Assembly: GCA_020426325.1 (NCBI GenBank) | Contig: JAGQQG010000013.1 | Span: 1 to 64,000, forward strand | Origin: Planctomycetaceae bacterium | GTDB taxonomy: Bacteria > Planctomycetota > Planctomycetia > Planctomycetales > Planctomycetaceae | DNA length: 64,000 nucleotides | Direction: 5' to 3' | Shown here: piece after piece, positions 9,097-33,322 of the stretch | Layout: each line of letters starts with the position of its first letter | Numbering within the stretch: position 1 is the first letter of the stretch | Program-made: the position numbers and the translations under genes | Notes under the pieces: model-generated | Told to the model about the DNA's origin: nothing | Seen by the model: the letters and a program-made list of their open reading frames with translations, nothing else | Database searches by the model: none

Positions 9097-9198
9097 AAGT
9101 AGCTGGATTCGCCAGAATTCAGCCCAATCGTGGCCTACCGGTGATCTTCTGAACTCTGGCGAGTTCAGCTACGTTTATCGGTGAAAGGAATGCATCAG

Positions 9199-31777: not shown

Positions 31778-31897
31778 ATGTCATACCAATCAACCAACCA
31801 GAGCACTGCCGGCAGAATCGCCAACGAATCTGCTGAGCAGATTCAATGCTTGCCCTGCCCCGGGAAATCGAATTCCACGGGTCCGGGGAGGTTGTGA
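31778..31897 (+). CDS. possible small protein of 39 residues
   Basis: ATG 31778 has AAGAGAA 4-5 bases upstream and opens a 39-residue frame with a CLPCPG segment, ending at TGA 31897. An intrinsic terminator follows 33 bases later. No family recognised. It may instead be the 3' part of the transcript of the preceding gene, or chance. Confidence 0.28.
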   Translation: MSYQSTNQSTAGRIANESAEQIQCLPCPGKSNSTGPGRL

Positions 31898-31929
31898 CAT
31901 CAGGGAACCATGCAAGACATGCTCCACAG

Positions 31930-31957
31930 CCCGATGTCACCCGACATCGGGTTTTTT
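31930..31957 (+). terminator. intrinsic terminator upstream of the tRNA array
   Basis: CCCGATGTC (31930-31938) pairs with GACATCGGG (31943-31951), loop ACCC, followed by TTTTTT at 31952-31957. It separates the preceding transcript from the tRNA array that starts 19 bases later. Confidence 0.9.
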
Positions 31958-31976: not shown

Positions 31977-32048
31977 GGCTCGTTCGTCTATCGGAAAGGA
32001 CACGGCCCTTTCAAGGCCGAAAGAGGGGTTCGAATCCCCTACGAGTCA
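31977..32048 (+). tRNA. tRNA-Glu (UUC)
   Basis: 72 bases. Acceptor GGCTCGT/ACGAGTC (one G-U), D stem GTCT/GGAC, anticodon stem CGGCC/GGCCG with loop CTTTCAA (anticodon TTC), T arm AGGGG-TTCGAAT-CCCCT, discriminator A. No encoded CCA. First gene of the array. Confidence 0.93.
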
Positions 32049-32052
32049 CTGT

Positions 32053-32140
32053 GAGTTGAGAGTCCAGTGTCCAGAGTTGAGAGTGCCTGAATTGCGAGCC
32101 GACTTGCATCAAGGGCACTCTCAACCATCGACCCTCAACC
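32053..32140 (+). repeat. inverted-repeat spacer between tRNA-Glu and tRNA-Ile
   Basis: GTTGAGAGTGCC (32076-32087) is perfectly inverted at 32114-32125, and the flanks extend it imperfectly to about 35 bp. The left arm shares its GAGTTGAGAG...GTCCAGAG pattern with the spacers at 32446 and 32943. Confidence 0.75.
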
Positions 32141-32146
32141 CAACAC

Positions 32147-32219
32147 AGCCTGGTCGTTCAACGGTCAAGGACGCCGCTCTGATAAGGCGGAAACGAAGGT
32201 TCGACTCCTTCCCGAGCTA
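32147..32219 (+). tRNA. tRNA-Ile (GAU), irregular acceptor
   Basis: 73 bases. Anticodon stem CCGCT/GGCGG with loop CTGATAA (anticodon GAT); T arm GAAGG-TTCGACT-CCTTC. The acceptor AGCCTGG/CCGAGCT has one C-A mismatch and one T-G wobble. Discriminator A, no CCA. A 7-bp palindrome TGCGGCA-AC-TGCCGCA follows at 32225-32240. The irregular acceptor makes it unlike the usual rRNA-operon tRNA-Ile. Confidence 0.82.
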
Positions 32220-32369
32220 CTGCGTGCGGCAACTGCCGCATTGTGCCGTGGGAGAGCGAGAGAGCATCGGGAAGTCGCTCCGGCGAGTTCGATTAGAGGA
32301 CAGAGAAAAGAGAGGGTGAAGTCAAATGGCAACGTTGCATCGATTCAAACACACACCGCGACAGATTAC

Positions 32370-32441
32370 GGGGTCGTGGTGTAACGGCAGCACAGCAGGC
32401 TTTTAACCTGCACAGTGGGGGTTCGAATCCCTCCGGCCTCA
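32370..32441 (+). tRNA. tRNA-Lys (UUU)
   Basis: 72 bases. Acceptor GGGGTCG/CGGCCTC with two wobbles, D stem GTGT/GCAC, anticodon stem GCAGG/CCTGC with loop CTTTTAA (anticodon TTT), T arm GGGGG-TTCGAAT-CCCTC, discriminator A. No CCA. Confidence 0.92.
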
Positions 32442-32445
32442 CTTT

Positions 32446-32525
32446 GAGTTAAGAGATGAGTGTCCAGAGTTGAGAGTGCCTGCGATTGACAGTTCGCTCA
32501 ACTCTCATCACTTGACTCTCAACTC
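32446..32525 (+). repeat. inverted-repeat spacer between tRNA-Lys and tRNA-Thr
   Basis: Bases 32446-32476 and 32496-32525 form an imperfect inverted repeat of about 30 bp (GAGTTAAGAG... against ...CTCTCAACTC). The left arm ends GTCCAGAGTTGAGAGTGCC, identical to the same stretch of the spacer at 32053. Confidence 0.72.
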
Positions 32526-32529
32526 GAAC

Positions 32530-32601
32530 GCACTGGTGGTCCAGCGGCGACGACTCCGCTCTCGTAAAGCGGCAACGTGGGTTCGACTCCCACCCGGTGC
32601 C
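32530..32601 (+). tRNA. tRNA-Thr (CGU), unusual discriminator C
   Basis: 72 bases. Acceptor GCACTGG/CCGGTGC with one wobble, anticodon stem CCGCT/AGCGG with loop CTCGTAA (anticodon CGT), T arm GTGGG-TTCGACT-CCCAC. The D stem has only three pairs. Position 73 is C, unusual for tRNA-Thr. No CCA. Confidence 0.85.
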
Positions 32602-32612
32602 TCCGAAATGGG

Positions 32613-32665
32613 GAATCGAGAATGGTAAATAGGGAATCCTGACAACTGTTCCCCATTCTCGATTC
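32613..32665 (+). repeat. inverted-repeat spacer between tRNA-Thr and tRNA-Gly
   Basis: GAATCGAGAATGG (32613-32625) is perfectly inverted at 32653-32665 as CCATTCTCGATTC, 13 bp, with further AT-rich similarity around it. Sequence differs from the GAGTTGAGAG family. Confidence 0.78.
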
Positions 32666-32685
32666 ACAATTCTCCATTCAAAACC

Positions 32686-32756
32686 GTGCCCATGATGTAA
32701 TGGCAGCCTATCGCCTTGCCATGGCGAAAGTGCGGGTTCAACTCCCGCTGGGTACC
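32686..32756 (+). tRNA. tRNA-Gly (GCC), irregular
   Basis: 71 bases. Acceptor GTGCCCA/TGGGTAC with one wobble, anticodon stem TCGCC/GGCGA with loop TTGCCAT (anticodon GCC), T arm GCGGG-TTCAACT-CCCGC. The D stem ATGT/GCCT has a mismatch and a wobble, and position 73 is C where bacterial tRNA-Gly normally has T. No CCA. Confidence 0.82.
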
Positions 32757-32851
32757 TTGGTCAGTTGATGAGTTGACTGGATGATCAGATGAATAGCAGG
32801 ACGTTGTGACATTACTTTGGCTCATCCTGATCAACTACTCGTCTATTCATC
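32757..32851 (+). repeat. inverted-repeat spacer between tRNA-Gly and tRNA-Asn
   Basis: GATGAATAG (32788-32796) is inverted at 32843-32851, with looser pairing around it. Its first 16 bases, TTGGTCAGTTGATGAG, recur exactly at 63578-63593, so it belongs to a dispersed repeat. Confidence 0.68.
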
Positions 32852-32864
32852 CAATCCACCAATG

Positions 32865-32936
32865 TGCGGTGTGGCCCAATGGTAAGGCGCCTCCCTGTTA
32901 AGGAGACGATTGCAGGTTCGAATCCTGCCACCGCAG
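32865..32936 (+). tRNA. tRNA-Asn (GUU)
   Basis: 72 bases. Acceptor TGCGGTG/CACCGCA is fully paired, anticodon stem CCTCC/GGAGA with one C-A mismatch and loop CTGTTAA (anticodon GTT), T arm GCAGG-TTCGAAT-CCTGC, discriminator G as expected for Asn. No CCA. Confidence 0.92.
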
Positions 32937-32942
32937 CTTTTC

Positions 32943-33008
32943 GGTTGAGAGTTGAGTGTTCAGAGTTGAGAGCCGCGTCACGCGAAGTGTGACGTATCAC
33001 TCTCAACC
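32943..33008 (+). repeat. inverted-repeat spacer between tRNA-Asn and tRNA-Ser
   Basis: GGTTGAGAGT (32943-32952) is perfectly inverted at 32999-33008, with an inner CGTCA/TGACG hairpin. The left arm is related to the spacers at 32053 and 32446. Confidence 0.75.
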
Positions 33009-33013
33009 CTCAC

Positions 33014-33099
33014 GGAAGTCATCCGGCCGGATGAGGGGCCTGTCTCGAAAACAGGTGGTGAGTCACACTCACATGTGGGTTCGAGTCCCACGGCTTCCG
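33014..33099 (+). tRNA. tRNA-Ser (CGA)
   Basis: 86 bases with the long variable arm of tRNA-Ser. Acceptor GGAAGTC/GGCTTCC, anticodon stem CCTGT/ACAGG with loop CTCGAAA (anticodon CGA), T arm GTGGG-TTCGAGT-CCCAC, discriminator G. No CCA. Confidence 0.93.
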
Positions 33100-33119
33100 C
33101 TGAATCGGGTCTGGGGGTC

Positions 33120-33175
33120 TCGGCGTTCGGGTGTCGAAAGTAGTTCGCACTCCATCCCCGACACCCGAACGCCGA
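33120..33175 (+). repeat. 17-bp perfect inverted repeat after tRNA-Ser
   Basis: TCGGCGTTCGGGTGTCG (33120-33136) is inverted at 33159-33175 as CGACACCCGAACGCCGA, loop of 22 bases. It is the longest perfect arm among the tRNA spacers and its sequence is unrelated to the others. Confidence 0.85.
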
Positions 33176-33192
33176 ATCCCGATCGCCGATAC

Positions 33193-33245
33193 TGCGGGGT
33201 AGTTTCTACTCATACAAATCCGCGGCTTTGAACCGCGAGGTCTAG
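33193..33245 (+). pseudogene. 5' half of a tRNA-Gln-like gene
   Basis: TGCGGGG could be a 5' acceptor strand, GTTT/AAAT a D stem, and CGCGG-CTTTGAA-CCGCG a perfect anticodon arm with anticodon TTG (Gln). After it the T arm and the 3' acceptor strand CCCCGCA are missing, so it looks like a truncated tRNA copy. Confidence 0.5.
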
Positions 33246-33322
33246 ATTGGCTTTGACATTCAGGTTCAAAGGCAAAGGATCTTTCCATGAGCAGACCTCC
33301 GCTCCTCATAATGAGGAACTGA

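Follow-up and report, generated by a model that had tools for sequence, protein, structure and literature searches.

An accessory tRNA array with heptamer-repeat spacers and a putative attenuator-like leader in a planctomycete genome

Why would a bacterium keep seven tRNA genes in a row, most of them separated by hairpins, and what would set their transcription? The window analysed here, a stretch of 64,000 nucleotides, comes from contig C44 of a 6.85-Mb planctomycete MAG (genome G000), and the array occupies positions 31977-33100 of its + strand. ARAGORN recovered tRNA-Glu (ttc, 31977-32049), tRNA-Ile (gat, 32147-32220), tRNA-Lys (ttt, 32370-32442), tRNA-Thr (cgt, 32530-32601, identical in G002), tRNA-Gly (gcc, 32686-32756), tRNA-Asn (gtt, 32865-32937) and a type II tRNA-Ser (cga, 33014-33100), in agreement with a first-pass annotation that had read seven tRNAs on one strand. 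The first six also matched RF00005, with 53-65 bits. The tRNA-Ser fell below the gathering score of that family, and it is found at the same place in G001-G004, which belong to the same genus. The broken Gln-like half noticed downstream proved to be a true relic of tRNA-Gln (ttg, about 33193-33241, + strand), which keeps the 5' part and the anticodon arm and has lost the T arm and the 3' acceptor strand; at the homologous place, G001 and G002 have an intact tRNA-Gln-ttg.

The annotation had suspected an accessory set, and a search for copies elsewhere upheld this: all seven array anticodons (7/7) have a second copy in the genome, so the array is accessory for them. It had also called several tRNAs irregular, which holds only for their lower model scores. 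Otherwise, the array tRNAs are 89-99% identical to those of G001 and 87-100% to those of G002 (except Asn, 67%), and decay of irregular genes is not supported, as most of them are conserved between species. That reading did not mention the heptamer structure of the spacers, a second array in the same genome, or a region with putative leader peptide, antiterminator and terminator at 31778-31957. The only matches of the array in a plasmid search were to tRNA-like stretches in other phyla. Arrays of this kind are already known, since planctomycete tRNA clusters were reported in 2016 as 'degenerate tRNA gene clusters' (PMC4807772). Low-scoring tRNAs redundant with the core set, which characterize such clusters, are found in the window and also in G111. 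In the accessible part of PMC5966550, a tRNA array unit has at least 20 tRNAs at a density of at least 2 per kb; with 7 genes in 1.1 kb, the window array has the density of such a unit but not the number.

The six spacers do contain the inverted repeats that had been noticed. Most of these escaped a strict ungapped hairpin scan, and lower thresholds were used instead, together with folding z-scores (minimum free energy against dinucleotide shuffles) and z-scores of lag autocorrelation. Three hairpin spacers belong to the GTTGAGA heptamer family: Glu-Ile (32050-32146; fold z -5.8, lag-7 z 5.0), Lys-Thr (32443-32529; -4.0 and 4.5) and Asn-Ser (32938-33013; -4.1 and 5.6). Thr-Gly (32602-32685; -4.2 and 5.9) is made of GGGAATA heptamers, and the hairpin after tRNA-Ser (33101-33192; -5.5, and 5.0 on 33101-33195) belongs to a GGCGTTCGGGTGTCGGG family, with related copies elsewhere in G000 and in G001. 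The sixth, Gly-Asn (32757-32864), consists of GTTGATGA octamers, with a lag-8 z of 5.6. All six lie on the + strand. Pairing thus exceeds that of shuffled sequences in five spacers (z -4.0 to -5.8), whereas Gly-Asn reaches only -1.6. The remaining Ile-Lys spacer is unstructured and has no hairpin (fold z +1.1).

The arms are therefore periodic, with a lag-7 z of 4.5 to 5.9 in five spacers, above shuffled controls as expected of heptanucleotide short tandem repeats, and with a flat lag-6 autocorrelation in five of the six. Several word families contribute to them, mostly as degenerate heptamers such as GTTGAGA and GGGAATA. The sequence type said to be shared by three spacers was found again as GAGTTGAGAG words, although their count alone is uninformative, the reversed control being a member of the same repeat family. 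The estimate of repeat density rests on about 372 kb from three other contigs of this genome, in which a handful of intergenic sites, away from tRNAs, carry similar 7-mer hairpins. The hairpin elements suspected between the tRNAs are therefore dispersed repeats, with members elsewhere in the genome and a strong enrichment in the array. Integron gene cassettes have attC core sites (RYYYAAC/GTTRRRY) adjoining an integrase; they are an unlikely source of the array spacers, because the arm words differ. Other repeats were also seen. The hairpin repeat GTAGCTGRAYTCGCCAGARTTCAG is common to window positions 9099-9172 and to 10727-10795 of L061, the locus of the second array, and is apparently another dispersed family. 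Hairpins of the GTGCCTGCGGCAGC / GCTGCCGCAGGCAC type, devoid of a 7-nt period, are found at L061 9375-9453 and, in L114, between Pro-tgg and Ile-gat, and half elements of this type also lie between Asn and Ser in G001-G003.

Sister species have other word families in place of several hairpins, with near-identical tRNAs at their sides. Between G000 and G001, the Gly-Asn spacer is 57% identical (shuffled control 49%) and Asn-Ser 46% (control 47%), and partial similarity is kept in the Glu-Ile hairpin (69%) and in Thr-Gly (61%); the Thr-Gly spacer is 86% identical in G002. The dense arrays of relatives from the same genus and from other families have the same order and mostly short spacers, often of 5-35 nt, without hairpins, only a few being longer. 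At the positions of several window hairpins, another tRNA (Pro, Ile, Lys or Gly) is present in the dense arrays of G003 and G004: relatives have tRNA-Pro at the place of the Glu-Ile hairpin and tRNA-Ile(tat) and/or tRNA-Lys(ctt) at that of Lys-Thr, tRNA-Pro(cgg) stands at that of Gly-Asn in G003 and G004, and tRNA-Gly(tcc) at that of the last hairpin in G004.

These data bear on the proposal, also made by the annotation, that the hairpins help to process one long precursor. Functional processing or stability signals, for instance RNase III sites that cut such a precursor, would agree with the presence of hairpins at matching positions in G001 and G002 despite their differing sequences, and with the purine-rich strand coming first in many arms, though not in all. 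We nevertheless consider this explanation very unlikely. The collinear arrays of G004, G028 and G038 have mostly short spacers without hairpins, and the hairpins at one position can differ completely between sisters whose tRNAs are nearly identical, the two observations on which we rejected processing as the main explanation. Moreover, the similar 7-mer hairpins found elsewhere are away from tRNAs, and a processing stem has no need of a 7-nt periodicity. The swapping of hairpins between sisters and their absence from most dense arrays indicate that they are lineage-specific repeats, fast-changing and dispensable for processing, which probably just settled between the tRNAs.

Another conserved feature was found before tRNA-Lys, where a mini-ORF with a Shine-Dalgarno-like AGAGGG (32326-32406, + strand; MATLHRFKHTPRQITGSWCNGSTAGF and a stop) runs into the tRNA and stops in its anticodon loop. 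Of 38 spacers that precede Lys-ttt, 32 have a Shine-Dalgarno-like motif followed by an ATG at a distance of 39-68 nt (most often 43-45) from the tRNA; the combination was seen in 19 of the 170 other spacers. The mini-ORF is conserved across families, with a core like RLKRI, and its frame into the tRNA differs between lineages.

The order of the array is collinear in G001-G004 and in genomes of other families of the class Planctomycetia, and this gene order indicates that an accessory array common to several of these families is present in the window in shortened form. The array of G004 (32 tRNAs) and that of an Isosphaeraceae genome, in which 37 tRNAs for all 20 amino acids lie downstream of one leader, are both large and dense enough to count as tRNA array units. 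In G111, a complete genome, the core set of 47 tRNA genes covers the 20 amino acids, and the 29 tRNAs of two arrays are redundant with it except for Ile-tat and Arg-gcg. The second array of G000, on contig C284, has a leader of its own, and ORFs lie between its tRNAs; two such ORFs without Pfam matches, of 115 and 265 aa, are at L061 9572-9919 and 8448-9245 (- strand). A match to the tRNA-Sec model at L061 10625-10704 (- strand; 34.7 bits, below the cut-off) is similar to tRNA-Tyr from the sister arrays, except that its anticodon arm is altered. In L153 and L226, ARAGORN predicted a tRNA with anticodon TTA, which would read UAA stop codons, at the usual place of Asn.

An array of this kind might also be a decaying, horizontally acquired and dispensable cluster without a current role, which is the view expressed in the accessible part of PMC4807772. 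The low model scores, the lost tRNAs, the tRNA-Gln relic and the redundancy with the core set are all in line with it, and an Anabaena cluster is dispensable, as cited in the accessible part of PMC5966550. On the other hand, the tRNAs have remained 89-99% identical to those of G001 while several spacers turned over, order and leader are common to several families, the leader frame described below is open in 73 of 73 cases, and the Isosphaeraceae genome has a near-full set in its array. Decay without a role is therefore quite unlikely in our opinion.

Upstream of tRNA-Glu, the first element on the + strand is a putative leader peptide ORF of 39 codons (31778-31897; MSYQSTNQSTAGRIANESAEQIQCLPCPGKSNSTGPGRL), which ends GRL-TGA with its stop codon at 31895-31897. 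Position 31778 is the nearest in-frame ATG, and one further upstream would give an ORF of 48 codons. The putative antiterminator 5' strand (GTGACATC, 31894-31901) overlaps this stop codon and is an 8-bp complement of 31933-31940. That complement is part of a terminator-like hairpin at 31928-31957, whose 10-bp helix has a 5' arm GCCCGATGTC (31929-31938), a loop ACCC and a 3' arm GACATCGGG (31943-31951), followed by six T, 19 nt before tRNA-Glu. In eight leaders, the first tRNA is closely preceded by a terminator hairpin whose 5' arm or loop is complementary to a strand further upstream, and folding of the 5' part alone gave the antiterminator in all eight.

A covariance model of the leader (R1) found matches in 140 of 297 genomes of the class (E<=0.01) and, in a sample of the phylum, in 8 of 246 at 1e-5, all but one within the class. 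Thalassoglobus neptunius, a planctomycete that can be cultivated, has both the leader and the array. At least three tRNAs lie within 1.6 kb of 67 of the 75 leaders examined, and three leaders (L176, L201 and L219) have none nearby; 56-66 tRNAs are nevertheless present in three genomes without a leader match. The leader is found across many genera and at both arrays of G000 and of G111, that is, on both halves of split arrays. In Rfam, only the tRNAs matched in the window, and no leader family scored above its cut-off in five other leader loci. No viral contig matched in a search with the leader pattern, which leaves a phage origin unsupported, and our literature search, of partial coverage, found no account of leader peptides with tRNA arrays.

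The ORF and the pairing were assessed with separate controls. The conserved CTGCGCTTGTGAC motif is the end of the ORF, mostly LRL, LRT or LRS followed by TGA. In the 73 leaders with the homologous TGA, its frame is open for at least 30 codons in every case, against 26 and 32 of 73 for the other two frames, and an in-frame ATG lies 24-70 codons upstream in 71, against 6 and 3. As R1 includes the TGA region, the independent evidence here is the openness of the frame and not the TGA itself. Codon differences (217 nonsynonymous, 47 synonymous) pointed to no constraint on the protein sequence other than an open frame and the end of the ORF, and a conserved peptide is not claimed. No promoter was identified, and Shine-Dalgarno motifs are weak, also in the window. 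The antiterminator helix score has a mean of 19.5, against 17.6 with the partners of other species and 12.7 with shuffled 5' strands. In an alignment of 81 matches fitted to the terminator only, antiterminator cells are 87.7% paired and their covariation (0.211) exceeds that of shuffles (0.168+-0.008, none of 500 reaching it) and of slid controls (at most 0.113), although it rests on few independent changes, with counts inflated by relatedness. The terminator itself is 98.9% paired, with a strong covariation of 0.281. ATGAC is partnered by GTCAT and GTGAC by GTCAC (Fisher p=5e-6, inflated by relatedness). The two helices, both of which covary, share a strand by sequence and would thus be mutually exclusive.

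A simpler explanation would be that an unrelated small gene ends here with its own terminator, to which the upstream ORF and the hairpin belong, so that the array is insulated without being regulated. Genes ordinarily end in this layout, with an intrinsic terminator about 30 nt after the ORF, and the poor conservation of the leader peptide fits with it. However, the upstream complement is missing at 22 ordinary terminators of this genome: their mean helix score is 11.4 (p=5e-11 against the leaders) and none of the 22 reaches 17, in contrast to 56 of 74 leaders. Furthermore, the complement covaries with the terminator, the layout recurs ahead of tRNA arrays in many genera and on both halves of the split arrays of G000 and G111, and beyond a peptide of about 33-60 codons there is no separate gene to terminate. 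We regard a mere gene end as rather unlikely.

Based on these data, we think it fairly probable that the array is a shortened, species-specific copy of an accessory array of Planctomycetes that provides a spare tRNA set and whose transcription is set by ribosome-mediated attenuation. RNA polymerase would pass the terminator when the antiterminator forms. As the TGA lies inside the antiterminator 5' strand, a ribosome that finishes the leader ORF and sits on its stop codon could mask this strand, in which case the terminator would form and the array would be off. A stall or failure of leader translation would instead let the antiterminator form, and the spare tRNAs would be made. The leader peptide has a mixed composition, with no dominant amino acid and no run of any one, which disfavors a sensor of a single amino acid and suggests that the leader senses translation in general. 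By analogy with phage tRNAs, we hypothesize that the array serves as a reserve upon damage or starvation of the normal tRNA pool. As dispersed repeats, the hairpins would have been tolerated or gained in this genus, several of them where relatives have another tRNA. More tentatively, though far from implausibly, many Planctomycetia may hold a near-complete second tRNA set that is silenced by leader-peptide attenuation and turned on when ribosomes fail to finish the leader, an emergency reserve for translation whose triggers could be the cleavage of tRNAs by toxins or defence systems, or starvation. If real, a conserved translation-sensing switch ahead of large accessory bacterial tRNA arrays would imply conditional use and yield a direct, testable prediction of when they are needed. 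It would also bring attenuation, known from amino-acid operons, to tRNA genes, and constitute an RNA regulatory element that is new and present in about half of the genomes sampled from the class.

Among known systems, the closest are the planctomycete clusters described in the accessible part of PMC4807772 as degenerate, possibly dispensable, partly degraded and acquired. They belong to the same phylum, have low-scoring tRNAs, and include a single-copy tRNA-Ile-UAU as in G002-G004 and G111; that part of the paper does not mention conserved order, a leader, a leader peptide, an attenuator or heptamer hairpins, which are observed or proposed here. The tRNA array units of Mycobacterium, phages and plasmids are similar in their dense single-strand arrays, core-redundant isotypes and order conserved within groups, but the window array is below their size definition and no attenuator is mentioned in the accessible part of PMC5966550. 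Degenerate 7-nt repeats that fold into a hairpin and vary between strains are known from P6b of the Nostoc tRNA-Leu intron (PMC3488679), and intergenic heptamer repeats from other bacteria (PMC4679880). While the Nostoc repeat lies in an intron, those of this planctomycete are in spacers between tRNA genes and belong to several word families. Replacement of tRNAs depleted by host nucleases has been described for phage tRNAs (PMC10264068), from which the idea of a spare set for a damaged pool is borrowed; a further study reportedly deals with the same kind of replacement. Unlike phage tRNAs, the arrays described here are chromosomal in many genomes, and a search with a related leader pattern found no viral contig. 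In ribosome-mediated transcription attenuation of the trp/ilv type, a leader peptide ORF, an antiterminator that overlaps its end and an intrinsic terminator precede the regulated genes; ilvBNC is said to be an example. The putative window leader peptide differs from those leaders in lacking a run of regulatory codons, but the layout is alike, with tRNAs in the place of amino-acid biosynthesis genes.
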